Part shown: in pieces, positions 1-25,034 of the stretch | How the letters are laid out: each line of letters opens with the position of its first letter | Numbering within the stretch: the first letter of the stretch is position 1 | IMG/VR virus record: IMGVR_UViG_3300044691_000458 | Location: 1 to 50,067 of that record | DNA: 50,067 nucleotides | Reading direction: 5' to 3' (one strand) | Source: a virus | The notes under the pieces: model-generated | Database searches by the model: none | The model's input: the letters and a program-made list of their open reading frames with translations, nothing else | Told to the model about the DNA's origin: nothing | Position numbers and translations under genes: made by a program

Positions 1-126
1 TCATCACCAAATTGCGCTTGCCCTATAGCCATAGCCGACCCAAACTCAGTATTAACAATTGTTAAGGCTTGTCCTGGGTATGCTTCTTCTAGTCCATAAC
101 TTGTATTGAACTTCATTCTAACAGCT
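1..126. repeat. Contig-end direct overlap (copy 1), identical to 49934-50059
   Basis: Bases 1-126 are identical to 49934-50059, with the portal frame continuing through. This shows a circular map of 49,933 bp, or a terminally redundant or permuted phage; it is an assembly overlap rather than a biological repeat. Confidence 0.9.
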
Positions 127-1949
127 GCTGCAACGTCTGGTAGACTGGCTCCTCCATCAAGCTCAACAGCTATAAAGTCATAGATACTATTCATTGCGGT
201 TTCTGAATAGCCTAGGAATCTATCCTTTTGCTTCTTCATGATATTGAATCTAACAATGTCCTTAGCTCTCTCCTGTAAAAGATCAAGCTTAGCTTGTCTG
301 TCCTGATTCGATTCCTTGGCCTTAAAGGACTTCTGTGTTTTCACACCTTTGATTTGATTTCCATAAGCTTGCATCGCAGGCTCTAAAGCTTTTTCGGCAA
401 ACTTCTTTGCGAAGGAAGTCCCTCTACTCTTTACTTTCTTTAGAGCCGATCGCTTATTTTCAAGGTTACCTATAACGATATCTTCCCACGCGCTGAATTC
501 CGATTTAAATAAGCTGTGAACTTTTTCGGGAGGACTTTGAAGATCCAACTCTTCTTTTTTCCAGTGTGTGAGTGCATCGAGAGGTACAAAGACCTCTTCC
601 TGGACCGCCTTTTGTTCAGTTTCAGGTAGCGAAAACGCTTGCGGAGCCATAGAAAACTTTTGGATTTGCGATTCAAGAACGTCGTAATCAGAGTTAAGCG
701 GATCATATCCTAGTCGCTCCCGTCTTTCATTAACCGTTAAAACAGTCAGTGCTTTATCTTGGTCGATTCGTCTATCGAAGTCATCAAGGTAAGGAATGTG
801 GGAATTGTCAAACTCTAAAGTCCAACGGCTATCTAGGCCGAAACGCGACCAGAGTGAAGAGGCAACAATGGCCTGAACGAACATAAACTGAATAGGTTGA
901 ATGGTGTTTCTCCAAAAGAATTCCATTTCAGCATAAGCAGTCGCTCTATTCGACTGATCCCCTAGACCGAGAGCTGCGTTATTAGTGCCGCCCGCTGCTT
1001 TAAAGAGGGATACATTTTCCTTTAATAACTCGGTTAACCTCATCTCACCAAAGTTTGAGCCTTGGCCTTTCCAGCTAGCCCCTTTAGGAAGGATCTTATC
1101 GGCGTGCATGTTCTTTCGGCCTCCAAAGGCTTGCATGATCGACTTGGATAACCGTATAAGTTGCTCCATGTTCGACGTATCGGTTTCAATTATGCCGGCT
1201 GTGTTTCCACCTCGAAGCAAGAAACCTAGGACATACTCGCGGCCGTACTTATCTATGAGAGTAGGAAGAATAGAGGCTATGAAAGGGGAGAGACCCATAT
1301 AAGGACTAAACGGATTTGGATATTTAAAGTGAACGATTTCCTCGGGTGTAAGATTAACCCCCGCATTATCCGGCAAGTTACTAAGCTCACCACGGTCAAT
1401 GATTCGATAAGACAAAACTTGGTTATTATTGATTTGCGGATCTACTCGCTCAGCTGGAATGCGTCGCCTAGTCTTCAAATCTTTAGAAATGTACCAATAG
1501 GCATTACCAGTTAAGTTCATATCGGCAATGGTATTTGAATTCATGAAAGCTGCGTTTTCAACTTCTTGCCCAGCTGTTTTTAGAAAGGTCAGAAGAGGAT
1601 GATCATGAACGACTTGAACATCTTCACCTGTAGCCATTTTAAGAATCATTCGACTACTTAAGAATTGCTTAGAAACCGCGTTTGTGTTCGCGTTTATCCA
1701 AAATTCTTGCATATGAAGCTGCTTCATAGCCCGTATGGTTGGGATGAGATTGAACTCTCCCATAAACATACTGTTTTGACCGCCGCTACTTAAAGCTTGA
1801 TAGTTAAGCCAATCAAAATCTTTGTTCTCGGAATCATAGGCAGCTATTGCTCCCCAGTCTGCAAAATTAACTCGCGGCTTTTGCTCCTCAACTACTAAAG
1901 TTTTCTGAGGTTCAACTACATTGCTTTTTAATTTTAACCATTTGAACAT
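1..1949 (-). CDS. Portal protein fused to a MuF-like head domain (N-terminal part; continues across the contig seam)
   Basis: The portal forms the dodecameric ring at the capsid vertex through which DNA is packaged. The reading frame opens at ATG 1949 (MFKWLKLKS), overlaps the end of the upstream gene by 16 bp, and is open without a stop to base 1. The contig is circular (1-126 equals 49934-50059), so it continues in the same frame to a TGA at 49696, giving about 728 residues. The first ~420 residues read like the HK97-type portal family (for example WRNTIQPIQFMF and NERRERLGYDPL). The last ~120 residues resemble the SPP1 gp7/MuF minor head protein (motif VINCRC). Portal and MuF-type protein are usually separate genes, so this is a fusion. 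I see the continuous frame directly; the family calls are from motif recognition. Confidence 0.88.
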   Translation of the reverse strand, partial: MFKWLKLKSNVVEPQKTLVVEEQKPRVNFADWGAIAAYDSENKDFDWLNYQALSSGGQNSMFMGEFNLIPTIRAMKQLHMQEFWINANTNAVSKQFLSSRMILKMATGEDVQVVHDHPLLTFLKTAGQEVENAAFMNSNTIADMNLTGNAYWYISKDLKTRRRIPAERVDPQINNNQVLSYRIIDRGELSNLPDNAGVNLTPEEIVHFKYPNPFSPYMGLSPFIASILPTLIDKYGREYVLGFLLRGGNTAGIIETDTSNMEQLIRLSKSIMQAFGGRKNMHADKILPKGASWKGQGSNFGEMRLTELLKENVSLFKAAGGTNNAALGLGDQSNRATAYAEMEFFWRNTIQPIQFMFVQAIVASSLWSRFGLDSRWTLEFDNSHIPYLDDFDRRIDQDKALTVLTVNERRERLGYDPLNSDYDVLESQIQKFSMAPQAFSLPETEQKAVQEEVFVPLDALTHWKKEELDLQSPPEKVHSLFKSEFSAWEDIVIGNLENKRSALKKVKSRGTSFAKKFAEKALEPAMQAYGNQIKGVKTQKSFKAKESNQDRQAKLDLLQERAKDIVRFNIMKKQKDRFLGYSETAMNSIYDFIAVELDGGASLPDVAAAVRMKFNTSYGLEEAYPGQALTIVNTEFGSAMAIGQAQFGD

Positions 1950-2275
1950 TCTGGGGCCTTTTGAAGTTGATTTTGCCCGTCGAGTATGTCGTATATACGA
2001 CCTTTAACAATATTATTATATTGGAAAGCCGTGATTCTTGTCTTTAAGGAGAAAAGTTCTTCAATAGATAAGTCGACAAACTCGGACTCCGATAGCTTCT
2101 TAGCTAGCAAGTATAGGTCCATACAGTATTTAGCGTCTTTATTAGCGTCTAAATCTGGGATGTGAGCACCTAGTATTTCCACACAAATCGACCTAAAAGT
2201 TGCTTTTGCACCGTCGGGATGAAGGATTGCAGAGCCTTTGAAGTCAACGATAGGCGCGCATACGGATACTCTCAT
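1934..2275 (-). CDS. Hypothetical protein, 113 aa, upstream of portal
   Basis: I do not recognise the family. It is a soluble protein with no signal peptide or membrane segment; the C-terminal half is helical and rich in Leu, Ser and Glu. It lies 22 bp after the secreted paralogue and overlaps the portal start by 16 bp, so it is translationally coupled to the portal and probably a late head-related or accessory protein. A perfect 14-bp palindrome with core GTATATAC lies inside its coding sequence near 1988-2001, probably a by-product of the codons used there. Confidence 0.7.
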   Translation of the reverse strand: MRVSVCAPIVDFKGSAILHPDGAKATFRSICVEILGAHIPDLDANKDAKYCMDLYLLAKKLSESEFVDLSIEELFSLKTRITAFQYNNIVKGRIYDILDGQNQLQKAPECSNG

Positions 2276-2297: not shown

Positions 2298-2741
2298 TTA
2301 GAATGATTTTGCGTGGCAAAAACCGTCAAGTGTCCCAGCAGTAACAGAGTTCTTAGTATATACAACTCTTGCCCAACTCTCACCAAGGGATGTGACGTTG
2401 ATAAGATTAGTTCCTCCTGCCGATGTTATAGTAAAAGTCGCGCCGGATTTATCTATCCAATCAGAGGATGCAGGAGACGCAACCGATGATACTTGAACTT
2501 TAACAACTGCATCGATAGACCCGGCTGAAGTTAAACTTGCCCAAGTAACTTGTACCGACATACGTCCCATTTTTGATATATCGAAAGGTCTTCCGAACGC
2601 ACCTACGTCTGTAGAATTTCTATCCGTTCCAGCAGTTAACGCACTAAAAAATTTACAATCCCTAGCTTGAATGACCAAAGGGGCATCACCAAAAGCCTGA
2701 AAAGAAAGTCCGAAAGCAAGTAAAAGTAATAATTTTCTCAT
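2298..2741 (-). CDS. Secreted protein, tandem paralogue 2 (147 aa)
   Basis: Function unknown; predicted to be exported to the periplasm or outside. I place the start at ATG 2741 rather than 2753, because GGAG lies six bases upstream and the protein then begins with a clean Sec signal peptide (MRKLLLLLAFGLSFQAFGD). The mature part shares about half its residues with the next gene upstream (2762-3205), including ARDCKFF, LTAG, NSTD.GAFG.PFDIS, DAVVKVQVS, WARVVYT and a C-terminal CHA. With this start both proteins are exactly 147 residues. The paired cysteines (RDCKFF and CHA) may form a disulfide. It lies in the late operon between tail genes and portal, an odd place for a secreted protein. Confidence 0.75.
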   Translation of the reverse strand: MRKLLLLLAFGLSFQAFGDAPLVIQARDCKFFSALTAGTDRNSTDVGAFGRPFDISKMGRMSVQVTWASLTSAGSIDAVVKVQVSSVASPASSDWIDKSGATFTITSAGGTNLINVTSLGESWARVVYTKNSVTAGTLDGFCHAKSF

Positions 2742-2761
2742 AGGAATCTCCATTTAACTGT

Positions 2762-3205
2762 TTATTCTGCGTGGCAATAACCACTAATCTTCCCATTGGA
2801 GACCGTATTATGTGTATATACGACTCTTGCCCAATGTGCACTTAGATCTCTTATCTTGATATAATCTATTCCGTCACTAGACATTATTCTAAAAGTCGCT
2901 CCGGGTATATCAATCCAATTAGAGGGTGTATTGGATACTTGAACTTTAACGACAGCATCAAGATATGGAAATGCAGCCCAGTCTTTTTCTGTATAGGTGG
3001 TTAAATCATTCCATGAAATTAAAACGGACAACCGCCTTAATCTTGATATATCAAAGGGTTTCCCAAATGCTCCAAGATCTGTAGAATTCCAATCATAGCC
3101 AGCTGTCAGCTCTCTGAAAAATTTGCAATCTCTAGCTTTGATCACCTCACCAAAAGCTTGAAAGGGGAGGAATAAAATAGGCAAAAGCAGTATTTTTTTG
3201 ATCAT
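2762..3205 (-). CDS. Secreted protein, tandem paralogue 1 (147 aa)
   Basis: Exported protein of unknown role, paralogous to 2298-2741. I choose ATG 3205 (MIKKILLLPILFLPFQAFGE), which gives a normal signal peptide cut after AFG; the longer frame from 3325 would bury it and overlap the divergent gene. GGAG on the minus strand at 3220-3217 lies 11 bases upstream and belongs to a palindrome that also serves the plus-strand gene at 3225. Conserved features with its paralogue include ARDCKFF, GAFG.PFDIS, DAVVKVQVS, WARVVYT and CHA. The beta-rich, Trp-containing sequence could be a small binding domain, but I cannot name it. Confidence 0.75.
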   Translation of the reverse strand: MIKKILLLPILFLPFQAFGEVIKARDCKFFRELTAGYDWNSTDLGAFGKPFDISRLRRLSVLISWNDLTTYTEKDWAAFPYLDAVVKVQVSNTPSNWIDIPGATFRIMSSDGIDYIKIRDLSAHWARVVYTHNTVSNGKISGYCHAE

Positions 3206-3212
3206 TGTAAAA

Positions 3213-3220
3213 GGAGCTCC
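3213..3220. promoter_or_regulatory. Palindromic Shine-Dalgarno GGAGCTCC shared by divergent genes
   Basis: The perfect palindrome GGAGCTCC sits between start codons facing away from each other. On the plus strand GGAG ends 8 bases before ATG 3225; on the minus strand GGAG ends 11 bases before ATG 3205. Only 19 bp separate the two start codons, so neither gene has room for its own promoter in the gap. Confidence 0.6.
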
Positions 3221-3224
3221 AGAC

Positions 3225-3491
3225 ATGGACAGGAATCGCGTCATAGACAAATTCATTGAGATTGCCATCGGCCTAGCACTTACAAGTACTGTAGCAGTTT
3301 TAAGTGGACTTCGGAAGGATATCAATCAACTAAATGACACAATGATAACCGTCGTTCAAAGGCTTGCATTGTACGAACAAAGTTTTGTGGAGCTGAGGCA
3401 GGAGGTCAAAGACTCTTCCAAAGACTTGGATAGTCGTGTTAGAATTCTTGAGATCGCAATGTCATCCAATCAAAAGGGAAAAATTAAATGA
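3225..3491 (+). CDS. Small membrane protein with coiled coil, holin-like or XhlA-like (88 aa)
   Basis: Plus-strand gene embedded in the minus-strand late operon. ATG 3225 is chosen because AAGGAG lies 8 bases upstream; the longer frame from 3198 has no such site. It has one membrane segment near residues 10-26 (IEIAIGLALTSTVAVLSGL), then a charged coiled-coil helix to the end. Small phage proteins with one membrane helix and a coiled coil include holin-associated (XhlA-like) proteins, but the order here is membrane first. It overlaps the next gene by 4 bp (ATGA), so the two are co-translated. It could be a lysis accessory or membrane anchor; unproven. Confidence 0.7.
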   Translation: MDRNRVIDKFIEIAIGLALTSTVAVLSGLRKDINQLNDTMITVVQRLALYEQSFVELRQEVKDSSKDLDSRVRILEIAMSSNQKGKIK

Positions 3492-3856
3492 TTCAGAAAC
3501 TAGTTATGGGTTTTGTTATTAGCTTTGTCTTGAAACAATTAGAAAAGTTTGAATCTAAAATTGATTGGGAGAAAGTTAAAGCCGACATCGATGTTCGAGT
3601 CCGCGCTTTGGTGCCCGGCACATGGTTTGACGACGAAGCCGTTGAGTTAGCTAATACTGTTATCGACGCCATTGCTAAAATCATGGCATCTTCTGGCCAA
3701 ACTAAAAACATTTTGTCTCTTGTTGCTAATAAAAAATACTCTGAAGCTGGCAAGATTATTCAAGATCTAGTATTGAAAGCTTGGAAAGATTCCTCTTCTT
3801 CTTTAATGGCGCAAGAACAAGTTGCTCAAAGTGTTCTAACGGATTTCGTAGTTTAA
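3488..3856 (+). CDS. Hypothetical helical protein, 122 aa, partner of 3225-3491
   Basis: Starts at ATGA overlap with the preceding gene and ends convergent with the GIY-YIG gene, the two stop codons sharing a TTAA. The N-terminus (MIQKLVMGFVISFVLKQL) is hydrophobic and could be a membrane anchor; the rest is soluble and helical with acidic patches. I do not recognise the family. With its partner it forms a two-gene plus-strand island inside a minus-strand operon, next to a homing-type nuclease, which suggests acquisition as a cassette. Confidence 0.68.
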   Translation: MIQKLVMGFVISFVLKQLEKFESKIDWEKVKADIDVRVRALVPGTWFDDEAVELANTVIDAIAKIMASSGQTKNILSLVANKKYSEAGKIIQDLVLKAWKDSSSSLMAQEQVAQSVLTDFVV

Positions 3857-4446
3857 TATTGACGCTTTTTTCTGGTCACAGATATTTCTAGCCCGCTTCC
3901 CTTAAGTAATTTCTTCATAGTCTCGAAAGTGGGGTTCCCGTTTCCTTGTTCAAAGTCTGTAAGCAGACGCGGGGACACCTCACATAACTCAGCAAACTCA
4001 ACTTGAGATAATCCTAAGAAAGTTCTTATCTCTTTGCAAGCTTCCCAAATCGGAACGCCACCACGATCGACACGATCATAAAACTCATGGCGTTGACGTT
4101 CTTGTCTTAACTTTTCTATTCTTATTCTTTTCTCATCTGAGTTTTCTTTTTTAGCGAATTTAAACCGAGTGAGGGATTGATTATAACCGGTTGGCTCTAG
4201 GGTATGATGCTGTCGTATGTAATTTATTTCTGTCTCGGCTAATAATTCCGACGGGACATCGTCTTGTAAGATCTCAACCGTAAAGGATGAGGCACCGTAT
4301 TTGTAAGCGTCGTCTTGGAGTTCGTGGCAGCGTGTGATGCGCCACCACTTACCCCCACTATAACGCTCAACAAATCCTTCGGTGTCGGTTGCCCCTATGT
4401 AGGCTTTACCGGTTACAAGATTTGTTATTTTGTAAACTTTGCCCAT
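3853..4446 (-). CDS. GIY-YIG endonuclease fused to an XRE-type helix-turn-helix
   Basis: Probable DNA nuclease with a DNA-binding tail. Residues 1-95 show the GIY-YIG pattern: VYKITN then KAYIGAT, a conserved basic region, and a catalytic-type Glu in AETEINYI. The middle is a charged linker. Residues ~140-190 form a Cro/C1-type HTH (LGLSQVEFAELCEVSPRLLTDFEQG.GNPTFETMKKLL). GIY-YIG homing enzymes usually carry other DNA-binding modules, so an XRE-like tail is unusual. It stands beside an inverted two-gene island (3225-3856), as expected of a mobile homing-type element. A role in regulation or competitor cleavage is also possible. Confidence 0.8.
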   Translation of the reverse strand: MGKVYKITNLVTGKAYIGATDTEGFVERYSGGKWWRITRCHELQDDAYKYGASSFTVEILQDDVPSELLAETEINYIRQHHTLEPTGYNQSLTRFKFAKKENSDEKRIRIEKLRQERQRHEFYDRVDRGGVPIWEACKEIRTFLGLSQVEFAELCEVSPRLLTDFEQGNGNPTFETMKKLLKGSGLEISVTRKKRQY

Positions 4447-4458
4447 GTAAAAGATATA

Positions 4459-5379
4459 TCATTGATAACCTAATCTTGACCCGACTAAAAAATCAAGTCC
4501 CGGTGTTCTGAAGTCACCAGCGTCCGGTGTTTCCCATAAGCCACAACGTTGATGCCGGTATTCCCATTCATCGAATTTAAATTTTTGTAGCCACTCATTT
4601 ATATCTCCTCTGCCGCAATAGTGGTCAACCGTTGGCATTTGAGTCTCACGTGTGACGTCACAAAAATTATTCTTCACAATATTAGGCCATGTCTCACCCA
4701 AACTCTCTACGGTTTTTAGAGCAAGAAAACCGAGATGAATTCGAAAGCATGACTTCTTAGCTACGATGGTTGCCCGTGACCACTCACCAATTTCTAATCC
4801 TAAGAGAAGCTTAACATCGTCTGTAGGCTTTGTTCTTAGGTCAAGCTTATGTGCGAGTAGCTGAAGAACGTAATCGAAAAACTTCTCGAGTTTAGAATCA
4901 GACTTAGGGTTTAAATGTAAATCATGTTCGTCTACATATTTTAAATTTAATCTAATAGCCTCTTTCCAAGCATCTCGAGATCCTGGACACCTAGCAATTC
5001 TATCGGCTACTCCAAAGTAGAGACCCATGGCGCCGTCTAAGTTCCCGTCATCAGCAGCAAGTGTAGGATGTCTCATGAGAGTACCATTAGTTGAAACGAT
5101 CTCGTCTATAAGCTGCCTCTCGATTGCATCGCCCATCTCACACGAGAGACCGTATAGAGCAATACCAGACCAGATAAGAGAATCTCCAGCATTCGCAGGC
5201 TCACCATTCTTTCCTCTGCTAACGACACGATTATGATCAAGGAATTCATTAACGAGGCGTGTTGAGGCATCATGGTATAAATCCTTTTCAGATTTTGTTA
5301 TAGGTTGTGCAGCTTCTTCTTTATCCGGTTCGCCGCAAACCGTTAAACAAAAGAAAAATAAAACGTGAATAAGTTTCAT
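4459..5379 (-). CDS. Predicted lipoprotein, 306 aa
   Basis: The N-terminus MKLIHVLFFFCLTVC followed by GEP has a lipobox (LTVC), so it should be lipid-modified and anchored in the host envelope. The mature protein is helical with several cysteines and repeated acidic and Trp residues; the stretch DGNLDGAMGLYFGVADRIARC recalls helical-barrel enzymes but I cannot assign one. It lies at the distal end of the tail-fibre genes. A phage lipoprotein expressed late could block receptors or secondary infection, as known for other phages; that is inference. Confidence 0.7.
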   Translation of the reverse strand: MKLIHVLFFFCLTVCGEPDKEEAAQPITKSEKDLYHDASTRLVNEFLDHNRVVSRGKNGEPANAGDSLIWSGIALYGLSCEMGDAIERQLIDEIVSTNGTLMRHPTLAADDGNLDGAMGLYFGVADRIARCPGSRDAWKEAIRLNLKYVDEHDLHLNPKSDSKLEKFFDYVLQLLAHKLDLRTKPTDDVKLLLGLEIGEWSRATIVAKKSCFRIHLGFLALKTVESLGETWPNIVKNNFCDVTRETQMPTVDHYCGRGDINEWLQKFKFDEWEYRHQRCGLWETPDAGDFRTPGLDFLVGSRLGYQ

Positions 5380-5387
5380 GAGTTCCC

Positions 5388-5705
5388 CTAAAAAAATTCA
5401 GTTACGACAATATTTCCTGAACCCGTATTCCTAAGAGCCGACATGATCCCAGTCCAAATAAGAGGTCCTAAACAAATGTAAGATGAAAAGGTAGCCAGTA
5501 TGATGACCGGACTACTACTTGATGAGACAGGCCCCCAAGTTATGTATGCTGAGTTAGCTCCATTATTCCAGATGGAAAATCCTTTTCGGTTTTGATTAGC
5601 TGCACAAATAACGACAGAGGACAAAAGGACTGCTGTTGTTGTCGCAATCGATTGACTCACTTGAGTTGTCACAGAAGAAGCAATTGACTCTACTGACTTG
5701 GCCAT
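5388..5705 (-). CDS. Small tail-associated protein, 105 aa
   Basis: Short protein rich in Ser, Thr, Ala and Ile with beta-prone repeats (SSVVICAANQNRKGFSIWNNG and YITWGP). The pattern NRKGFSIWNNGANSAYITWG resembles small phage structural or fibre-cap proteins that bear a beta-sandwich. No signal peptide. It follows the 799-residue adhesin by 66 bp. A virion role (fibre tip or decoration) is likely from context but unproven. Confidence 0.6.
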   Translation of the reverse strand: MAKSVESIASSVTTQVSQSIATTTAVLLSSVVICAANQNRKGFSIWNNGANSAYITWGPVSSSSSPVIILATFSSYICLGPLIWTGIMSALRNTGSGNIVVTEFF

Positions 5706-5771
5706 TATCTTTTTTACCTTAATGGATACGTGAAAACGAGGAACGCAAAACCGTTGAATAAAAAGTTTTTT

Positions 5772-8171
5772 CTAGCTTCCTGTCCCGACGTAATAAGTAA
5801 TTACGGTATCTTGATTTGCCCCTGCTGTTGCTGAGTTCGTCCAAGCTGTCCCAATCATATCCCTTCTGATTGTTATGATACCCGTGTTGCTAATATCCCA
5901 ACGTCCAGGAGTTGCGCTGATTGTGTTATTATCCTTCATTGCTGGTATAAATCCCGATGCAATGGTTGACTGGATCGGTCTTGCGAAAGCATCTAGAGCT
6001 GTATTTGAAGTGAGTGTAGTACTTGATGTCCCGGTTGTCCCTTGAACAGAGTTCATATAAATTGTGACGAAATCACCCAATCTCTGATAGCGAAGAGTTA
6101 CTGATGGCGAAGTCCCACCTGCACCGTTGAATGTAAACGTAGTTGCTGTAGAGCTCGTGTAAGTGTTCACTAACCCTAATGATCCATCGGTTGTTTTTCC
6201 AAAACCAATAGCAACGCCACCAGCTACTTTTCTAACGCGCCACTTAGTAGTGCTTAAACTTGCCCATGTATTGTAATTACCAGCAGTGCCTGATGCATAA
6301 ATTCCTGTATTCGAAGCCCCAGAGGCAGCAAATTTAACATCAACATCCGTTGAATTTACAAAAGCTAAGAAAACACCGACAGAGTTTCCACCATTATATC
6401 CAAAAGATTGGATATTATTACCATCTTGTTCTGGAGTAAGCCATGGCCCTGTCCCTGCTATTTGGAATTCGAGAAATAATTTATCAGTTTGTTGAATCGG
6501 TGTTTGAAATCGTACTCTATAGTTTTGAACACTTGTTCCAAGTGATTGTGTAACACTTGGAACCCCACCACCAGCAGGACCATAGGCAAAAGATGTGGTA
6601 TCTCCACCTGTCGCAGTATTGGAATTATAAGCATATTCAGTGTCATTTTGAGCTACGTTAACCGTTCCTGAACCAGCCCATTCCGCAATTGGAATTCTAC
6701 ATCTAAATACAATGTGGGAAGTGTTGCTAAAAACTGATCCGGCATTTATTTTAGCGTAGGCATTAGATGCTGATGTATATGAGAAATATATATTTGCTGT
6801 ATCTGATCCATCGTAGATAATAAGACCGTTATTGCCACCAACAGCAAAAAAGTTAGAGGAACCTGCTGTCTGAATTTGTTCCCAATCACCAATCCCTTGG
6901 CCTGACGCATGTGATGAAAGAGCAGCGGAGTTTATAGTATAACCTGTTGGCATAGCAATCTTTGAAATACTAGCAGCTACTGTCCCAGCTTGAAATCTTC
7001 CTTGCACTACCATGTACTCGCCTACACGCTGCATCTCATATAAACCGTTTGATACAGTTCCAAAAGCTGCAGATGCTGGTGTAAATGTAACTGACGTTAC
7101 TGGCCCTACAACTGCCCCTTGAGGCTGTATACCCGGCCCAACTACAACGTTTCCAATAACTAGTGCAGTCGTTCCTGCTACTCCGGTTATATCTAACTCA
7201 TAAAAGTTGGATGTATCTGTATCAAAGGTTGTTGTGAATTTACCGTCCATATTAGGAATACCGGACACACCCGAGGAATCAGTTGACAAAGCTAGAGCTG
7301 TGTACGTTCCACCATATGATGATGTCGAGTTCGTTCGAACTTGAACCTTCAAATCCCCTGATGCATAGCCTGATAGAGCGTGTTGATACCACTCTACTTT
7401 TAACTTACGGTTTTTTAAAGAGGTGGGCATTGTCCATCTATAATAGACAGAATTGGTTCCACTTGCTCTTGTAATCTTGATTGCAGAACCGATATTTTGA
7501 CCTAATACGCCCGAAACAGAGTTCCCAAGTGGTAAGTCGGAAGTTGTGGTTGTTGTGGCTACAGTTATGTTTGCGCCTGAATACCAGTTAGCAGCGTCGT
7601 TAGGGTTGGATATTAAGTTAATCTCTGGAGCTGTATATGTTCTACTGTCGGTAGCCTTACCCAAAAAGAATTGATCCAAATAGATAACGGTTGCCGAAGC
7701 GGCAGCAGATACACAAATCTTTAACGAGCCACTAGACGGAATAGCAAAAGATATTTCATCGTTTGCATAGTTTGTCGATGTGGTGATTAAGTGCTGACCA
7801 ATTACGTTACTTGATCCGTCTTGAACCGACCATGAATAGTTGGTAGCATCCCCACCTTTGTACATGAGCGCAGCTTTACCGATAGCGCCATATAAACCGG
7901 TTGGAATAGTATAGGCCGCTGAGCAAAATGTTTGCGCGCCTGTAGGGGTCCATGAAGCTGAAGTGCTTCCGTAACCGATGTTTGAAGATGTGTCGAGGGC
8001 AAATGTCCCACCGACTGTCCATCTAGCCTTGCCGGATTCGAATCCTGGGTTCTCAAGAAGGTTGATAGTTCTCATCTCGCTTTGTTGAGCCATGGAGAAT
8101 GAAGACCCAGTCAGAGCATATGAAGGATACGCAATTAAGTATGAAAGAATAAAACAAAGAAATTTTTTCAT
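5772..8171 (-). CDS. Large adhesin or tail fibre with a signal peptide and carbohydrate-binding-like N-terminus (799 aa)
   Basis: Likely receptor-binding or surface protein. It starts with a convincing Sec signal peptide (MKKFLCFILSYLIAYPSYALT), strange for a virion part. Residues ~35-175 (NLLENPGFESGKARW ... IYLDQFFLG) look like a galactose-binding/CBM-type beta-sandwich often found in phage tail proteins, and a second similar segment follows (~185-345, NLISNPNDAANWY ...). The remaining ~450 residues are low-charge, Gly/Ser/Thr-rich beta repeats typical of fibres. It starts one base after the stop of the preceding fibre gene. Either the virion protein has a signal-like hydrophobic anchor, or it is exported from the infected cell. 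Confidence 0.75.
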   Translation of the reverse strand: MKKFLCFILSYLIAYPSYALTGSSFSMAQQSEMRTINLLENPGFESGKARWTVGGTFALDTSSNIGYGSTSASWTPTGAQTFCSAAYTIPTGLYGAIGKAALMYKGGDATNYSWSVQDGSSNVIGQHLITTSTNYANDEISFAIPSSGSLKICVSAAASATVIYLDQFFLGKATDSRTYTAPEINLISNPNDAANWYSGANITVATTTTTSDLPLGNSVSGVLGQNIGSAIKITRASGTNSVYYRWTMPTSLKNRKLKVEWYQHALSGYASGDLKVQVRTNSTSSYGGTYTALALSTDSSGVSGIPNMDGKFTTTFDTDTSNFYELDITGVAGTTALVIGNVVVGPGIQPQGAVVGPVTSVTFTPASAAFGTVSNGLYEMQRVGEYMVVQGRFQAGTVAASISKIAMPTGYTINSAALSSHASGQGIGDWEQIQTAGSSNFFAVGGNNGLIIYDGSDTANIYFSYTSASNAYAKINAGSVFSNTSHIVFRCRIPIAEWAGSGTVNVAQNDTEYAYNSNTATGGDTTSFAYGPAGGGVPSVTQSLGTSVQNYRVRFQTPIQQTDKLFLEFQIAGTGPWLTPEQDGNNIQSFGYNGGNSVGVFLAFVNSTDVDVKFAASGASNTGIYASGTAGNYNTWASLSTTKWRVRKVAGGVAIGFGKTTDGSLGLVNTYTSSTATTFTFNGAGGTSPSVTLRYQRLGDFVTIYMNSVQGTTGTSSTTLTSNTALDAFARPIQSTIASGFIPAMKDNNTISATPGRWDISNTGIITIRRDMIGTAWTNSATAGANQDTVITYYVGTGS

Positions 8172-8172: not shown

Positions 8173-10113
8173 TTATGAGAACCTCACTGAAGTTGCAGAT
8201 GGAAGAAAGGACACGTCAGCCGTGTCGGTATCAGTTGCATAATTCCTTGTGATCTTTACTCGTAGAAGATCGCCGGCAGCTATAGCAACACTGTTGATCG
8301 TGCCTGTTGAGCTTGATAGGTCAAGCGTAGTACTGCGATACATGTTAGCCACAGTATTTGTGAGAGCTGAATTAGTAGATGAATAACTATTAGTAGTAGC
8401 TGATAGAGCAGTACTGTTCTTCGCAAACAGATAGGTAGTCGCAACGAGCAGAATGGTGTTCGATGCACTAGCTGAATAGAGTCCGATATCCATATTGATT
8501 TGAGAGCCTGCCACATATCCATTAGGGACTTTTACATAGATATCTAATTCAGCATCGATCGCATCTGGAAACAAATAAACTTTTTCGCTGAACTGTTCAC
8601 TTAGTAAAGCACCCACACCCGATGGAGCGTTCCATGTCCCAGAGCTTCCACCTCCACCACCGCTGCCAACAACATTGTAATTCGTTCCATCACCAACGTA
8701 GAGAGTCTTAAGATCGGTTGCCCATACTAACATACCCGATGTTTTTGTCAGACCATCGAGATTGGTCTTCGTGTCCTTAGGAATGTAGAAACGATTTGTG
8801 GCTGATGCTGTCCCTCCATCATAAATTTTGTTTGTGATGGTAGCTGCTATCGAATCACCTAAAATTGTGCATGTAGCTATCGGCATAGTCCAAATAGCCG
8901 CAACGGTCATCCCAACTGCAGGACGTCTAAACGTTCCCAACCAGTCGGCACCTGAGCTAGCCGTTGCATTGTTCAACACAAGATCACTTGAATCGGTTTT
9001 CAAGGTGAGAGAAGACATGAGGCCCGCTACTCTAACCGTTGAGGATGTACCACCGAGCGTTAAAGTATTTGCTCCGATGGAAGCGCCGACAGACACAGCA
9101 CCAGCAGCCCAATCTATAGCGCCCGACGCAGCTAGAGTGATTGAAGCCACCACAGTGAGAGTTTTATTAGATAAGGTTTCAGCAAGTGCAAGAGAGGCCA
9201 AAGTCGCAGTCGCAAGGGGCATAGTCCAGACGGCGGCACCTGTCATGCCGGAGGATGGTCTTCTAATCGTTCCTAGCCAATCCGCTGCGGACCCAGCTGC
9301 CCCACTGTTCAGCACTAGGTCATTTGAATCAGTCTTAAGAGTTAAAGCAGACATGAGGCCAGCAACTCGAACGGTTGACGATGCACCCCCAATAGTCATG
9401 GTGTTAGCACCGATAGAGGCACCCAATGCTACGTTACCAGCTGCCCAGTCAATGGCACCCGATGCGACTAGAGTAATAGAGGCAGCTAAAGTTAACGTCT
9501 TATTTGATAGGGTTTCAGCTAGCGCAAGGGTAGCTATAGTCGACGTAGCCGTCGGCATCGTCCATATAGCAGCAGCAGACATGCCCGAAGATGGACGCCT
9601 AATCGTACCTTTCCAATCGGTTGTTGAGCCAGCGGCATCATAATTAAGAACAAGGTCGTTTCCATCGGCTCTTAATTCAGCTGCTTCGATGTTACCCGTT
9701 GTGACAATGCTACAGTTTGCATCGAAATCGGAAGAGGTAACATTGTAACGGTATCCAATAACATAAATTAGAAATGTCTTAGAACCACCCGAAACATTTT
9801 GAACCGATATAATTGATGTACTTGTCTGAGTGATGGTATAAGCAGCGACAATTTGAGCCTCTGTTAACTGTACTCCACTCTCAAATATAATGATTTTAAG
9901 CTTACCAATAGCTAGACCAAAATTGTGTGTCACAGCTTGAGAGGCTGAATTGGCTAACGTGTATGTGAAATACCTTCCTAACAAATGGTCAGAAAACTGT
10001 GTGAACATTGTGGACAAAGCAAGATGCAATGCAGTCCCACCGTCCAGAGTATCAAACCCTAAGTCGGGATCAGCAACTGCTAGCCTACCTCTACTTGTAG
10101 TAGTCTGCGACAT
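8173..10113 (-). CDS. Tail fibre protein with internal ~112-residue tandem repeats (646 aa)
   Basis: The gene starts in a TAATG overlap with its upstream neighbour. Residues 1-140 are a soluble head domain (QAVTHNFGLAIGKLKI... resembles fibre attachment domains). Residues ~181-404 hold two nearly identical ~112-residue units beginning AAIWTMP or AAVWTMP and including LALAETLSNKTLT, ASGAIDWAAG, GASIGANT, STVRVAGLMS and DLVLN; a third unit diverges after its start. The C-terminal ~130 residues begin after a Gly-rich hinge (SGGGGGSSG) and may be the receptor-binding tip. No signal peptide. Confidence 0.82.
   Translation of the reverse strand: MSQTTTSRGRLAVADPDLGFDTLDGGTALHLALSTMFTQFSDHLLGRYFTYTLANSASQAVTHNFGLAIGKLKIIIFESGVQLTEAQIVAAYTITQTSTSIISVQNVSGGSKTFLIYVIGYRYNVTSSDFDANCSIVTTGNIEAAELRADGNDLVLNYDAAGSTTDWKGTIRRPSSGMSAAAIWTMPTATSTIATLALAETLSNKTLTLAASITLVASGAIDWAAGNVALGASIGANTMTIGGASSTVRVAGLMSALTLKTDSNDLVLNSGAAGSAADWLGTIRRPSSGMTGAAVWTMPLATATLASLALAETLSNKTLTVVASITLAASGAIDWAAGAVSVGASIGANTLTLGGTSSTVRVAGLMSSLTLKTDSSDLVLNNATASSGADWLGTFRRPAVGMTVAAIWTMPIATCTILGDSIAATITNKIYDGGTASATNRFYIPKDTKTNLDGLTKTSGMLVWATDLKTLYVGDGTNYNVVGSGGGGGSSGTWNAPSGVGALLSEQFSEKVYLFPDAIDAELDIYVKVPNGYVAGSQINMDIGLYSASASNTILLVATTYLFAKNSTALSATTNSYSSTNSALTNTVANMYRSTTLDLSSSTGTINSVAIAAGDLLRVKITRNYATDTDTADVSFLPSATSVRFS
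8902..9573 (-). repeat. Two tandem 336-bp coding repeats in the tail fibre
   Basis: Unit 1 covers about 9573-9238 and unit 2 about 9237-8902, each encoding 112 residues beginning A-A-(I/V)-W-T-M-P. The protein copies are highly similar while the DNA has diverged at many third positions, so the repeat is old or selected at protein level. Such repeats can change fibre length by recombination. Confidence 0.75.
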
Positions 10114-18554: not shown

Positions 18555-20579
18555 TTAATCCTCTAAAATTTTAAGATAGTGCTCCATGCTGTCAAGAAGC
18601 CCAACTGTCATTAAGTTATCTTTGTTCTTTTTATAGCATTGGTAAGCGAGAGCCAAAGACCATACAGCCGGGCAAGATAAACCCTCAGGTGCTTCATAGT
18701 TAATGTTTCCTTTATCGGTTAAAGATGATCGTAACAGGGACATATGATCGAATAACAATCCTATCGGAGGATAGTTTAAATCTTGAGAATCTTTCAACTC
18801 AATAAACATCTGATCGATCTCTGGTGGGTATTGCTTAAACATGTCTATCGTCCACGGTTCACTTAACATCATCGTTTGCAGTGTTTCAGCATAACCGGAC
18901 TCTTGGATGTGAAAGGCTGCCTCTTTACGCTCAACGATAGCTTTGATACGTATGAGTGTATCTTTAGGCATAACACCATAAATAGTTATGACACAAAAGA
19001 TGACACCTTCATTATTGATACCTACTAAGCAACCATCGGATGTTTTCTTGTCGTAATAGATGCCGAAGAAATAAGCCCTTGATTCAGTAGTTCGGATATA
19101 GGGATCTTCATCTATGAAACTTTGAGGTGAACCGAATAATTCAAAGAGCCCAGAGAATACGGCTGTCTTGCCAAACTCTTCTAAGTGATTGATAGCTTGA
19201 GTCATCGCATCAACTTGATCGTCGTTAGTGCCACGAGGAAACACCGCGCACTCATCTATGAAGTCTATTAGCCACGGCTCGTTAGCTGGAAGGTGTATAT
19301 TACCAGACTCAAGAATAGGAGTCATAGCGACAGCCCTAGACTCTTTCGACCCTCTGGGTTCGATGCCAAGCATCCCAGAGACCTTTGATTTAAGAGCAGA
19401 GATAACAGCTGGGCCGTTGGCTTTGTTCTCTACCAATATCGGCTTGGCTCTAGGATATAACGCCGATAAAAGCTTAACAGCTTCTGTAGTCGCGACGAAA
19501 TCCATTTTGCCTCTGACTTGAGCAAGTAGATAGTAATCGGCTCCAATCTTGCCCCAAACCTGACCAACAACAAAGCTTCCATCGTCCGTGTCTTTGAACG
19601 CACAATCCCAAGAGGTCACCATCATTTCAAACCGTGAAGGGTGAACTGTATACAGTTTCCAATATTCACGTTTGATAACCATACCCTCAGCAGGTGTTGG
19701 GTTTTGCTGATAAAGAGAAGAGAATACGACACTACCCACAGAGGCTTTAATCCCTACGAGACGAGCATAGTCATACTTGAAAGGCCATAATGCTTCCCCT
19801 ATTTCTCTTGGATCGTTAGGCTGTTTCTGCTCACATATAGCGGGAAAGTTTATAATGTCCCAACGATCCGATTCAGGATCTTTCTCTTGAAGATCTAGCA
19901 GTCTTCCAGCTAGATCATCCTCATGCCAGCGAGTAACCGTTAAAAGAATAGATCCATTCTTCTCTAGTCGAGTGTAAAGAGTTGACCCGTACCAATCCCA
20001 TAACTTGTTTCGATATATCTTAGAGTTTGCTTCCTCTTGATTCTTGATCGGATCATCTATGATAATGAAGTCCCCACCCATACCCGTAATACCACCGCCA
20101 ACACCAGCTGAACGATAACTGCCACCATGCTCAACAACTTCAAATATATCTGAGTTACGAAGCCATGAGCCTTTAGCGACTGATCTAATATTTTTCCCAT
20201 TTAAAGATGTATCTGGAAAGATGTCTCGATACAGGTCTGAGTCAATAATCCTTTGAACATCCCTATTCATCATGCTCGCAAGGTCTGCTGAGTAGCTTGT
20301 TGCAATGATAGATGCTTTAGGATTCTTACCTAATAAGAAAGCTGGGAGGCGTCTAGATACTAATTCAGACTTTCCATGCCGCGGGGGCATAAAGATCATG
20401 AGGCGCTTGATCTTTCCCGAGATGAAGTCATTCAATTTCCGGCATACATATTTATGATGCCAGTTAACTGTGTAGGTGGGCATGACATAAAGAACGAACT
20501 GTAATAAATCCTCTTTAGCTTTACGCTTAAGCCTCTCTTCTAAGAGGGCAATGAGTTCAAGCTTCTCATTCCTGGTCAT
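18555..20579 (-). CDS. terL: Terminase large subunit with an extra C-terminal domain (674 aa)
   Basis: Motor and nuclease that packages DNA into the prohead. Walker A is FMPPRHGKSE (~residues 63-72), Walker B DFIIIDDP (~175-182); the coupling segment LTVTRWHEDDLAGRL is typical of the family. The nuclease starts at TSWDCAFKDTDDGS (~322-335) and ends with DDQVDAMTQAINHL (~454-467). A normal TerL would stop near residue 480. Here ~190 more residues follow, beginning AYFFGIYYDKKTSDGCLVGI and ending AVWSLALAYQCYKK, a layout that echoes a second, degenerate RNase H-like fold. The start overlaps terS by 14 bp. Confidence 0.9.
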   Translation of the reverse strand: MTRNEKLELIALLEERLKRKAKEDLLQFVLYVMPTYTVNWHHKYVCRKLNDFISGKIKRLMIFMPPRHGKSELVSRRLPAFLLGKNPKASIIATSYSADLASMMNRDVQRIIDSDLYRDIFPDTSLNGKNIRSVAKGSWLRNSDIFEVVEHGGSYRSAGVGGGITGMGGDFIIIDDPIKNQEEANSKIYRNKLWDWYGSTLYTRLEKNGSILLTVTRWHEDDLAGRLLDLQEKDPESDRWDIINFPAICEQKQPNDPREIGEALWPFKYDYARLVGIKASVGSVVFSSLYQQNPTPAEGMVIKREYWKLYTVHPSRFEMMVTSWDCAFKDTDDGSFVVGQVWGKIGADYYLLAQVRGKMDFVATTEAVKLLSALYPRAKPILVENKANGPAVISALKSKVSGMLGIEPRGSKESRAVAMTPILESGNIHLPANEPWLIDFIDECAVFPRGTNDDQVDAMTQAINHLEEFGKTAVFSGLFELFGSPQSFIDEDPYIRTTESRAYFFGIYYDKKTSDGCLVGINNEGVIFCVITIYGVMPKDTLIRIKAIVERKEAAFHIQESGYAETLQTMMLSEPWTIDMFKQYPPEIDQMFIELKDSQDLNYPPIGLLFDHMSLLRSSLTDKGNINYEAPEGLSCPAVWSLALAYQCYKKNKDNLMTVGLLDSMEHYLKILED

Positions 20580-23058: not shown

Positions 23059-23085
23059 TAAAGTTTTCCGGGGGTATGCCGATAA
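23059..23085 (+). promoter_or_regulatory. Sigma-28 (FliA) promoter 1, perfect consensus
   Basis: TAAAGTTT (23059-23066), 11-bp spacer, GCCGATAA (23078-23085) matches the classical E. coli/Salmonella sigma-28 consensus TAAAGTTT-N11-GCCGATAA at all 16 positions. It is followed by GAAGTATGTAAGT and a GGGGGATTT leader before ATG 23117. Confidence 0.9.
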
Positions 23086-23116
23086 GAAGTATGTAAGTAA
23101 ATTTGAAGGGGGATTT

Positions 23117-23623
23117 ATGAAACTCGTAGCAACATTTTCCTTTATAGCATTATTGACTCTCATATTACTAACAACTAGAAAACCGGAATTAACGGATGTC
23201 GTTTGGACAACTGGATGCATAGATAACACTATTGAAAATAGGGTTTTTAAAGAAGACGGTACATTCATCCATACGGTTTTAGAATATAATTGGTTATTTG
23301 CTAAAGACTGCGAAAAACTAGACAGTGAAAAAGTCATAACAGCACACTACACAGTGGACAAAGACAGAATTAGAATCACTTATTTAAAAGTAACTATGAC
23401 CGCACGCAACTCTTATGCAGAGGACATGTTTCGCAGTGGACATGATTACGGATATGGTGATGACCCCCATCCTTGGATGATGAATAAAGCTATGGATATC
23501 ACTGGTCTCAAGCTCTATAGGGATGTTAGAAGCGAATACCCTTATGGCTTTAATACCTCTACATGGTTTAAATTGACTAAAAACACACTTAAATTAGGCC
23601 AGCTAACCCTTAGTAATAATTGA
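23117..23623 (+). CDS. Exported or membrane-anchored protein under FliA promoter 1, 168 aa
   Basis: The N-terminus (MKLVATFSFIALLTLILLTTRK) is a signal peptide or anchor, so the body is likely periplasmic. The rest is beta-rich with Cys pairs (WTTGCIDN, FAKDCEK) and a lipocalin- or immunoglobulin-like feel (DGTFIHTVLEYN, YTVDKDRIRITYLKV). No known domain recognised. SD GGGGG lies 4 bp upstream of the ATG. Expected to be expressed when the host motility sigma factor is active. Confidence 0.68.
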   Translation: MKLVATFSFIALLTLILLTTRKPELTDVVWTTGCIDNTIENRVFKEDGTFIHTVLEYNWLFAKDCEKLDSEKVITAHYTVDKDRIRITYLKVTMTARNSYAEDMFRSGHDYGYGDDPHPWMMNKAMDITGLKLYRDVRSEYPYGFNTSTWFKLTKNTLKLGQLTLSNN

Positions 23624-23638
23624 TTTATAAAGAAACCC

Positions 23639-23665
23639 TAAAGTTTTTACGGAATATGCCGATAA
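23639..23665 (+). promoter_or_regulatory. Sigma-28 (FliA) promoter 2, perfect consensus
   Basis: TAAAGTTT (23639-23646), N11, GCCGATAA (23658-23665). The following leader (GAAGTATGTAAGT...GGGGGATTTATG) is nearly identical to that of promoter 1, so promoter plus leader was duplicated as a unit. Confidence 0.9.
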
Positions 23666-23695
23666 GAAGTATGTAAGTAAACTTAAGGGGGATTT

Positions 23696-23896
23696 ATGGA
23701 AAACTTAAAATGCGGAATACATAAACTGACAATTGAAACAAACCGTAAAGGTGAAAAAACAATAGCTGTTAGCACTAAAACCGGCTCTGATAGTATGGTT
23801 TCTAGGTACTCATTGGACGAGTATGAGCGGGCATTAGCCTGTTTTAAAAGACTTACAGCAGAAAGTGAAAAACCCGTAAAAGTAATAATGGTTTAA
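23696..23896 (+). CDS. Hypothetical protein, 66 aa
   Basis: Small cytosolic protein with a beta-hairpin-like start (CGIHKLTIETNRKGEKTIAVSTK) and a helix (LDEYERALACFKRLTAES). It is the first gene after FliA promoter 2 and shares the transcript with the metalloprotease-like gene 14 bp downstream. Family unknown; a regulator or chaperone of its partner is possible. Confidence 0.6.
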   Translation: MENLKCGIHKLTIETNRKGEKTIAVSTKTGSDSMVSRYSLDEYERALACFKRLTAESEKPVKVIMV

Positions 23897-23909
23897 CAAA
23901 GGGGGATTT

Positions 23910-24434
23910 ATGAAACTGAACATAGTAAACACTAATAAAGTCATAAGCAGCCTAGCCTTAATAGCCATGTTGTCTGGGTTTAATACCAAAGATGTTGACC
24001 CTAAAGCTTCATTTGTTCAAGTAGCCTCAAAAGAATCTAGAATGCTTTATACATATGTAGAAGAATTCGCTGAAGAAGCTCAAAAACGAGGGATTGAAGT
24101 GGATAAAGCTAGTCTAGCTTCGATTGATCTGGTGGCAGATACGACTGGAAGCCCTGAAAGACTAGGCGATTGTCAGAGTAACTATGGGGTTAAAAGAATC
24201 AAAGTTGTTCTCGTTATAACCCCGCGTTTTTATGATAGTTTAAGGAATATTGTTTTCCACGAATTAGGCCATTGTTTACTAGACTTAGACTACTCAGCCA
24301 ACCCAAAAGATATAATGTACCATCAAATCAATGATCTTAGCCTTACACATTGGGAAAAATCATTAGATAGATTGTTTGCCTCATATAAACCAGAAGAAGG
24401 ATTACGTGAAATTTTTTCACTAAAGTTTTTCTAG
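23910..24434 (+). CDS. Exported metzincin-like metalloprotease, 174 aa
   Basis: The N-terminus (MKLNIVNTNKVISSLALIAMLSG) looks like a signal peptide. Residues 117-127 read HELGHCLLDLD: a zinc-binding HExxH with Asp in the third-ligand position six residues after the second His (HExxHxxxxxD, as in snapalysin-type metzincins), followed by DIMYHQ with a plausible Met-turn at Met136. Cys88 and Cys122 may pair. This supports a small secreted peptidase acting in the periplasm or outside. It sits in a FliA-driven unit. The short length leaves only a minimal catalytic domain; activity is not shown. Confidence 0.7.
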   Translation: MKLNIVNTNKVISSLALIAMLSGFNTKDVDPKASFVQVASKESRMLYTYVEEFAEEAQKRGIEVDKASLASIDLVADTTGSPERLGDCQSNYGVKRIKVVLVITPRFYDSLRNIVFHELGHCLLDLDYSANPKDIMYHQINDLSLTHWEKSLDRLFASYKPEEGLREIFSLKFF

Positions 24435-24447
24435 AATGTGCCGATAA
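24421..24447 (+). promoter_or_regulatory. Sigma-28 (FliA) promoter 3, perfect consensus
   Basis: TAAAGTTT (24421-24428), N11, GCCGATAA (24440-24447). The -35 element lies inside the last codons of the metalloprotease gene (stop at 24432-24434). The downstream genes are 24490-24570 and 24588-24953. Confidence 0.9.
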
Positions 24448-24489
24448 GAAGTATGTGAGTCGGGATACGAAACCAAACGAGGGGGACAT

Positions 24490-24570
24490 ATGCCAGAAAA
24501 CATTAAATACGCCTTAGTTTCTGTAATCATACTAGGTAGTGCCGTTATCGCAAGCTTCATGGTGATGTAA
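24490..24570 (+). CDS. Membrane microprotein, 26 aa
   Basis: MPENIKYALVSVIILGSAVI followed by ASFMVM: essentially one membrane helix after a short head. GGGGG lies just before the ATG, and FliA promoter 3 is 42 bp upstream. First gene of that transcript. Likely a small inner-membrane peptide; function unknown. Confidence 0.55.
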   Translation: MPENIKYALVSVIILGSAVIASFMVM

Positions 24571-24587
24571 CACTTAAAGAGGTCAAT

Positions 24588-24953
24588 ATGAAAATCTTTG
24601 TAATAAATACTAAAAAAGTAATTCTATATACAAGCCTAGCCCTTTTCATAGGAACCGTATCAGTCTTTACATGGGCTTTCGCCACCGTAACACCATTAGA
24701 TAAATGCATGATTCAAGAAGAACTACATTCAGGACAATGGAAACTAACTACTTTCAGCAATTATTCAAATAAGATTTGCTTAGCACAAATGATTACTGGA
24801 AGACATTTATACAAAGGTTATTACGATGCATTGCCACAACACGAAACCCCTGAAATATTCTTCGAAAGAATGGCATTAGACCATGTCATATCAGAATATA
24901 CTTCTGAGAAATTAGAAGAGCTAGTTGCATACCAAGAAGCACACAAAAAATAA
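24588..24953 (+). CDS. Membrane-anchored or exported protein, 121 aa
   Basis: The start MKIFVINTKKVILYTSLALF resembles the start of the metalloprotease gene (MKLNIVNTNKVISSLALIA), so the two share a related leader. One membrane segment (~residues 11-32) then a periplasmic helical part with two cysteines (LDKCMIQ, KICLAQM) and a C-terminal helix. SD AAAGAGG precedes ATG. Same FliA transcript as the 26-aa microprotein. Confidence 0.6.
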   Translation: MKIFVINTKKVILYTSLALFIGTVSVFTWAFATVTPLDKCMIQEELHSGQWKLTTFSNYSNKICLAQMITGRHLYKGYYDALPQHETPEIFFERMALDHVISEYTSEKLEELVAYQEAHKK

Positions 24954-24965
24954 TAAGAGGGATTT

Positions 24966-25034
24966 ATGTCAGAATTTGAAATTAAGTTACAAATAATAAG
25001 AGATCAAATAGCACAATTAGTTAAGGGGAAATAA
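24966..25034 (+). CDS. Microprotein, 22 aa
   Basis: Short frame (MSEFEIKLQIIRDQIAQLVK and GK) with AGAGGG before the ATG. It is amphipathic and helical, ending 2 bp before the next gene, so it may be a leader or a real peptide. Confidence 0.35.
   Translation: MSEFEIKLQIIRDQIAQLVKGK

Follow-up and report, generated by a model that had tools for sequence, protein, structure and literature searches.

Leader-bearing candidate genes beside the tail fibre and tail tube of a phage with a probably Bdellovibrio-like host

The exported proteins familiar from phages are either small lipoproteins or membrane proteins. Lom and Bor of lambda, a temperate phage, are exported but short (206 and 97 aa) and not fibre-like in build; lom lies between the tail-fibre genes J and orf-401. 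In phage T5, llp adjoins the receptor-binding gene, and the llp of BF23 is unrelated in sequence with the same role (accessible part of PMC4728585). Streptococcal PblB, as described in the accessible part of PMC4508584, is phage tail-like, carries a domain predicted to bind galactose as well as a putative signal peptide, and serves as a bacterial adhesin; it comes from a Gram-positive prophage, and the adhesin itself is a tail-fibre homologue that is important for tail morphogenesis. Bdellovibrio bacteriovorus has 21 tail-fibre-like proteins with signal peptides, the MATs, members of which work at the predator surface; 13 of the 21 have an S74 chaperone-protease, an NS74 subgroup lacks S74, and in their layout the signal peptide precedes a beta-rich domain some 130 aa long (accessible part of PMC10769870). 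The Bdellovibrio phage phi1422, a myovirus, encodes gp68, a leader-bearing, fibre-like protein annotated as hypothetical, directly after its leaderless tail fibre. In the open-access literature we found no report of leaders on gp68 or on other Bdellovibrio-phage fibres, and the term 'signal peptide' is absent from the accessible text of PMC3391216.

We compared these systems with a stretch of 50,067 nucleotides, the whole of IMG/VR record IMGVR_UViG_3300044691_000458, hereafter called the window, which is a complete, integrase-less tailed phage. Neither a tyrosine integrase nor a serine recombinase was found when the window was searched, and the phage is probably virulent. Its primase and helicase find their best matches among 50,697 records in phi1422, which further replication genes also match; its capsid and portal do not match that phage. 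The host is probably a bacterium-eating bacterium, one probably like Bdellovibrio.

Leaders were scored with a rule-based signal-peptide predictor (pass threshold 5.5), which was calibrated on E. coli: of the exported proteins 12 of 13 passed, of the cytoplasmic ones 0 of 22 and of those in the inner membrane 1 of 11; by chance, 1 of 48 spurious window ORFs and 15 of 3150 shuffled N-termini reached at least 5.5. The hand-chosen window gene set comprised 63 genes plus the portal fragment, with ORFs below 60 aa excluded and no separate leader score for the portal extension (49696-50049). The lambda comparison used 68 CDS, with nu3, orf206b, lambdap35, orf28 and S' excluded. The late-block features discussed here are the following.

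3 to 2003, minus strand: portal gene with head-morphogenesis extension (PF04860, E 1.7e-30); the ORF is open at its end and spans the record ends
2298 to 2741, minus strand: 147-aa exported protein (predicted), paralogue 2, leader QAFG before DA, score 6.15
2762 to 3205, minus strand: 147-aa exported protein (predicted), paralogue 1, leader QAFG before EV, score 6.39
4459 to 5379, minus strand: 306-aa protein with borderline leader, score 5.3, eight Cys, non-canonical lipobox LTVC
5772 to 8171, minus strand: 799-aa fibre-like protein, predicted Sec leader MKKFLCFILSYLIAYPSYA before LT, score 5.74
8173 to 10113, minus strand: 646-aa leaderless tail fibre whose first 139 aa are conserved in the fibre of phage L005
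42296 to 43894, minus strand: major tail (tube) protein with inserted domain, no leader (PF18906 Phage_tube_2, E 1.2e-5; phrog_290, E 7.9e-9)
43909 to 45306, minus strand: 465-aa chimera, predicted to be exported, Sec leader AAYG before VK, score 5.91

The initial annotation had named five of these genes (799, 465 and 306 aa and the 147-aa pair) as virion-operon members with clean leaders. All five are present at the positions listed, on the minus strand, and each is preceded by a Shine-Dalgarno-like sequence. Judged by their scores against the chance level, the leaders of the 799-aa, the 465-aa and both 147-aa proteins are clean, whereas that of the 306-aa protein is borderline. Tight gaps place three of the genes inside the late operon: the 799-aa gene begins 1 nt past the stop of the 646-aa fibre gene, the 306-aa gene lies 8 nt from its preceding neighbour, and the 465-aa gene, which starts with GTG behind AAGGAGG, has flanking gaps of 22 and 14 nt. 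The 147-aa pair, by contrast, is separated from the rest by two plus-strand ORFs (3198-3856), with the portal coming next. These two neighbours are 57% identical to each other, with two aligned Cys, and GGAG precedes the ATG of paralogue 2 at 2741; their structure model (pLDDT 34) is uninformative. As virion parts, the premise of the initial annotation, all five are putative.

The 306-aa protein had been called a lipoprotein, which is doubtful: its score is below threshold and its lipobox, L-T-V-C, puts V at -1, where the consensus usually has G, A or S (PMC6139136). A signal peptidase I site, VCG before EP, is as plausible as the lipobox, and the protein has no Pfam, PHROG or PDB match. The lipoprotein assignment was dropped as unproven.

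Among the 26 late-block genes, TerS, TerL, portal, protease, capsid, tail tube, tape measure and the 646-aa fibre all lack leaders. Leader genes number 4 of 26 in this block and 4 of 38 elsewhere (Fisher p = 0.71), and we dropped the idea that they cluster there; that their density does not exceed that of the rest of the genome counts against reading them as exported accessories. The window as a whole has 8 leader genes among 64, lambda 4 among 68 (p = 0.23). A moron would bring its own promoter and terminator; in two regions compared with shuffled sequence, promoter-like sites showed no excess (12 against 18.0 and 5 against 7.1), and terminator-like sites numbered 2 against 6.4 and 7 against 3.2, respectively.

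Further leader genes lie on the plus strand, where sigma-28-type sites precede genes that include exported candidates:

23059 to 25630, plus strand: four predicted sigma-28 (FliA) type promoters, perfect at 23059, 23639 and 24421, with two mismatches at 25604
24588 to 24953, plus strand: 121-aa exported protein (predicted), AFA before TV, score 6.15
25669 to 26412, plus strand: collagen-like lipoprotein (predicted), lipobox LIGC, inner ATG start behind Shine-Dalgarno-like GGGGGA (PF01391, E 4.7e-8)
28011 to 28409, plus strand: 132-aa exported protein (predicted), AYS before KC, score 6.32
28406 to 29470, plus strand: 354-aa exported protein (predicted) with pre-toxin TG domain, score 6.2 (PF14449, E 3.7e-10)

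At least three perfect sigma-28 matches occurred in 0 of 100 shuffles. An extended form of the motif, scanned against a genome collection, gave one Nitrospira record, and the scan therefore did not place the host. A shorter form hit five viral contigs; visual inspection of the spacing and of the genes that follow led us to regard most of these hits as chance, with L013 the likeliest to be real.

In the late block the leader genes lie mainly in two slots, one behind the tail fibre and one ahead of the tail tube, which vary among phages and are empty or otherwise filled in relatives that share the capsid and tail tube. The slot after the fibre holds leader-bearing proteins in the window (799 aa), in phi1422 (gp68, score 6.66) and in phage L021 (658 aa, 5.94), each preceded by a leaderless fibre or fibre-like gene. 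Gp68 and the L021 protein have a common stalk (43% identity over 338 aa) and differ at both ends, a divergence that resembles the pattern of receptor-binding fibres. The slot before the tail tube holds leader-bearing proteins in the window (465 aa), L004 (111 aa, 6.4) and L024 (126 aa, 7.1), among which no convincing alignment was found, and no gene in L005.

The two largest of the five named proteins carry putative adhesion domains. In a weak model (mean pLDDT 43), the 799-aa protein resembles a CBM-like jelly roll towards its N-terminus (Z 11.1 to 8xmz), where a beta-rich stretch of this CBM-like kind covers roughly aa 48-174. The protein has no homologue in the viral contigs, phage records, Pfam or PHROGs searched, its similarity to gp68 is marginal (E 0.047), and neither it nor a gp68/L021 profile matched a PDB sequence; no Bdellovibrio- or MAT-labelled chain stands among the 50 matches listed for its model in either of two listings, an absence that carries no weight. 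The 646-aa fibre matches the L005 fibre (35% identity over 141 aa, E 2e-26) through an N-terminal domain that is absent from the 799-aa protein, and no domain common to the 799-aa and 646-aa proteins was detectable. The 465-aa protein carries at aa 122-218 an inserted domain of tail-tube type, which matches the window's own tail tube at 53.6% and that of L024 at 44.5%, and at aa 276-396 a virion-type domain that matches 'orf16' of PDB 9eg4_H (E 6.3e-7), a chain present in seven copies in the solved assembly. The PF18906 match of the tail tube itself narrowly misses the curated cut-off.

We consider it likely that the leader proteins are exported accessories rather than structural parts, and their best reading from sequence is that they are assembled from virion-type adhesion domains. 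Of the two routes that the initial annotation had offered, the variable slots, the leaderless core virion genes and the missing fibre N-terminus of the 799-aa protein favour the first, in which the phage exports several proteins to the envelope. Guided by their leaders, these proteins would leave the cytoplasm by Sec, after which they could attach to the host envelope through putative sugar-binding domains and adhesion domains of virion type. Their most likely role, by analogy with Llp of T5 and BF23, would be to mask, late in infection, the receptors that the phage itself uses; superinfection would thereby be blocked, and progeny would not stick to the dying cell and its debris. That they are such accessories and also act mainly by masking receptors is possible, at somewhat less than even chances. 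The likeness to Llp lies in the predicted export and, for the 799-aa but not the 465-aa protein, in a gene position next to the one for receptor binding in a siphovirus; versions unrelated in sequence would likewise have one role. Llp is, however, a lipoprotein, whereas the 799-, 465- and 147-aa proteins have no canonical lipobox and the 306-aa protein has LTVC, a difference that speaks against masking. The window proteins also differ from Llp in their length of up to 799 aa and in their fibre-type and virion-type domains, and their receptor blocking is putative; masking is weaker for the 799-aa protein because it has no detectable domain in common with the 646-aa fibre.

Alternatively, the predator host might display these proteins as phage-supplied, MAT-like fibres to bind or handle prey, with its prey range altered while infected. 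The MATs of B. bacteriovorus, the leader-bearing fibre-like proteins of both phi1422 and the window, and the exchanged tips of gp68 and the L021 protein are consistent with this. In build, too, the window proteins may resemble MATs, as tail-fibre-like mosaics of beta-rich domains with a signal peptide and a probable Bdellovibrio link. MATs are, however, encoded in the predator genome, and the window has no S74 domain (PF13884) and no detectable similarity to MAT tips, which diverge widely; the PDB searches yielded no match although MAT tips have been solved. Late expression in a lytic cycle would leave little time for a host benefit, and the Bdellovibrio-like host assignment is indirect. We regard this explanation as rather unlikely.

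Late exported proteins might instead help to breach the bdelloplast or outer membrane, since progeny inside a predator inside its prey must cross extra envelopes. In L021 the leader-bearing fibre gene is followed by a holin (PF05105) and by genes with leaders or lipoboxes, and the window encodes further candidates for export, among them one whose matrixin match is sub-threshold, as well as an M15 peptidase at another place. Yet no lytic or protease domain was detectable in the five named proteins (Pfam, PHROGs), and slot B, one of the two variable slots, is distant from the M15 gene. A role in exit seems unlikely. An outer-membrane lipoprotein signal of the spanin type was not found in the 799-, 465- or 147-aa proteins, and for the 306-aa protein it is conceivable.

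The second route of the initial annotation would make the leader proteins genuine components of the virion, first exported and then added to the particle at the membrane or once it has been released, for example as decorating fibres. Close packing among virion genes would fit, and for the 465-aa protein, built of a tail-tube and an 'orf16'-type domain, membrane-linked assembly is conceivable; we found no positive evidence for it. Against it, virions of tailed phages assemble in the cytoplasm, capsid and tail tube are shared with relatives in which the slots are empty or hold other proteins, and the 799-aa protein lacks the N-terminus common to the 646-aa and L005 fibres. We regard this explanation as quite unlikely. 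That the leaders arise by chance or from wrong start codons is scarcely credible, for although simple predictors can be fooled, as by the one spurious ORF, and the 306-aa case is borderline, 15 of 3150 shuffles pass, Shine-Dalgarno-like sequences lie upstream of the leader starts and leaders recur at the same slots in other phages.

Read as exported accessories, these proteins extend a known theme, viruses coating their host, to exported look-alikes of a phage's own attachment parts. If true, the recurrent slots by the tail fibre and tail tube would give a simple rule to find host-surface modifiers in uncultured phages, and would connect, in a way that can be tested, the tail fibres of phages with the tail-fibre-like adhesins that Bdellovibrio uses on prey. 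A bolder claim, that phages of predators place their own exported mosaic adhesins of virion domains on the infected predator and so alter its binding or that of other phages, we hold to be quite unlikely. If it holds, and if the sigma-28 promoters draw on the attack-phase sigma factor of the predator to express a second set of exported genes, it would describe a phage programme that remodels the predator surface and from which the MAT fibres of the predator might stem.

Predicted Sec or lipoprotein leaders were identified with a rule-based predictor (score threshold 5.5) written for this analysis and tested on two annotated E. coli stretches, in which proteins were classed from product names and general background. 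The predictor passes 12 of the 13 exported E. coli proteins, none of the 22 cytoplasmic ones and 1 of the 11 from the inner membrane, rates that are optimistic because the threshold was chosen by eye on the same proteins; chance controls pass at 1/48 (spurious ORFs) and 15/3150 (shuffled N-termini). Eight of the window's 64 genes pass:

5772-8171, minus strand, 799-aa protein
43909-45306, minus strand, 465-aa protein
2762-3205 and 2298-2741, minus strand, paired 147-aa proteins
24588, 25642, 28011 and 28406, plus strand, four further leader genes

The initial annotation had listed five clean leaders in the late block; these four minus-strand proteins bear it out, and the fifth, of 306 aa, falls short with a score of 5.3. 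Ribosome-binding-site-like sequences are present at the leader genes, and core virion genes carry no leaders. The late block is not enriched in leaders (4/26 versus 4/38 elsewhere, p = 0.71). In lambda, 4 of 68 genes pass (lom, Rz, Rz1, bor; Rz retains its N-terminal segment as an anchor), and the window's share is not significantly higher (p = 0.23); against the Bdellovibrio phage phi1422 (2/76) pooled with phi1402 (2/42), p = 0.027. Among the compared viruses, the counts are 0/19 (L005), 1/8 (L004), 0/6 (L003) and 0/20 (L002).

Two late-block positions hold leader genes. The first follows the tail fibre, a leaderless 646-aa protein whose N-terminal 139 residues align with the beginning of the 969-aa fibre in the relative L005 (35%, E 2e-26). 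The 799-aa leader protein begins one base past the fibre stop and lacks the N-terminal domain common to both fibres. In phi1422, the leaderless fibre gp67 is directly followed by gp68, with the leader MKFMIAFIIALFSVTMATA|Q, and in the virus L021, leaderless genes, called fibre by position only, precede a 658-aa leader protein and then a holin. The latter and gp68 have 338 residues in common at 43% and differ at both ends; common descent of gp68 and the 799-aa protein is not established, because their match is marginal (E 0.047). At this position L005 has no leader gene, and carries an amidase-like gene and one more, both named from sequence only. In a single-sequence model of residues 20-376 of the 799-aa protein, poor overall (pLDDT 43), the first domain, with pLDDT of roughly 50-77 by block, aligns with carbohydrate-binding modules, namely 8xmz (Z 11.1, with an rmsd of 2.5 across 105 residues) and CBM4-2 (Z about 10); TmCBM61 is a weak sequence match.

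The second position, before the tail tube, holds a leader protein in three of the four phages, the window included, whose tail tube shares 39% identity or more with that of the window:

window, 465 aa
L004, 111 aa, score 6.4
L024, 126 aa, score 7.1 from an inner ATG

Their mature parts give no convincing alignment, and the position is empty in L005, as it is in L025 and L026, distant phages with tail tubes at 28-29%. Upstream of the L026 head-tail genes there is a 394-aa gene (231-1415) with a leader score of 5.51. Farther along in the window, ahead of the portal, comes the 147-aa pair, for which no counterpart was found; two aligned cysteines kept in both proteins would fit a disulfide formed outside the cytoplasm.

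Of the 50,697 phage records searched, phi1422 is the best match for both primase (34.8% over 100%, 494 bits) and helicase (40.1% over 96%, 337 bits), the next-highest records among the matches listed reaching 371 and 237 bits, respectively. Three more genes match gp18 (E 4e-18), gp10 (E 2e-41) and gp13 (E 1e-40) of this phage; capsid and portal have no match to it in the phage-record searches. The plus strand carries three perfect copies of the sigma-28 consensus TAAAGTTT-N11-GCCGATAA, versus none in 100 shuffles. Sigma-28 (FliA) type promoters, three perfect and one near-perfect:

23059-23085, plus strand
23639-23665, plus strand
24421-24447, plus strand
25604-25630, plus strand

The genes downstream are small, plus-strand, and several are predicted to be exported. 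Of 140 attack-phase promoters mapped in B. bacteriovorus, 92 have a FliA-type motif (PMC3627812). Motif matches in the relatives L003, L004 and L005 are no better than three mismatches. A Bdellovibrio-like host is likely rather than proven, because sigma-28 is widespread among motile bacteria and no perfect site occurs in phi1422. The sole genome-collection match to the extended motif (2418-2450 of a Nitrospira MAG record, L008) precedes a 966-aa protein whose N-terminus resembles a leader.

Several plus-strand products merit separate mention. Because the promoter directly adjoins the GTG listed as its start, the collagen-like lipoprotein at 25669-26412 (GTDG/KDG repeats, lipobox LIGC) probably begins at an inner ATG. 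The predicted exported protein at 28406-29470 combines a pre-toxin TG domain (PF14449) with a further C-terminal region, and the preceding gene, overlapping by 4 bases, is also leader-bearing. The product of 23910-24434, with a HELGHCLLDLD motif, a sub-threshold matrixin match and a hydrophobic N-terminus, is a possible exported metalloprotease.

The record is an IMG/VR virus contig. Its genome is complete at about 49.9 kb, since bases 1-126 are exactly duplicated at 49934-50059 and the portal ORF spans both record ends; the final bases, 50060-50067 (AGATCGGA), lie outside this repeat and resemble the start of a sequencing adapter. The genome encodes portal, prohead protease, tail tube, helicase, YqaJ and methylase; TerL, tape-measure and capsid genes were also assigned, by sequence, by place in the gene order or by similarity. 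The phage is probably virulent, as neither a tyrosine integrase (PF00589) nor a serine recombinase (PF00239) was found. TerL (18555-20579, minus strand) has 674 aa, of which the phage matches listed span about residues 1-501, leaving the last 170-odd as an extension without explanation. A short protein at 3853-4446 (minus strand) has a GIY-YIG-like N-terminus (PF19835, below cut-off) and a helix-turn-helix domain (PF01381).

The closest precedent for a masking role of the leader proteins is Llp: in T5, llp adjoins the receptor-binding gene and its product blocks the receptor, and the Llp proteins of T5 and BF23 are unrelated in sequence (PMC4728585). The leaders, ribosome-binding-site-like sequences, late-block positions, leaderless core virion genes and shared domains of the window are computational results. 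Its leader proteins would be exported through Sec, lie outside the virion and bind the surface, and by analogy with Llp they may mask the receptor. Two results count against Llp-like masking: no domain common to the 799-aa protein and the 646-aa fibre was detectable, and these candidates have no canonical lipobox. Alternatively, the exported proteins may serve MAT-like adhesion to prey (PMC10769870), or they may aid exit through a double envelope. Finally, the leader proteins may be true virion members: the 465-aa protein carries the domain inserted in the tail tubes, matching the window's tail tube at 53.6% over 97 aa and the L024 tail tube at 44.5% over 155 aa, and its C-terminal stretch matches, with notable composition bias, PDB chain 9eg4_H 'orf16' (E 6.3e-7), which has seven chains in the entry and which we infer to be a virion protein.

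Phage-exported envelope proteins are already known. The largely open-access literature searched contained no description of exported fibre-like chimeras in such positions. Their recurrence in fixed late-block slots of Bdellovibrio-linked phages looks like a new variant of phage protein export.
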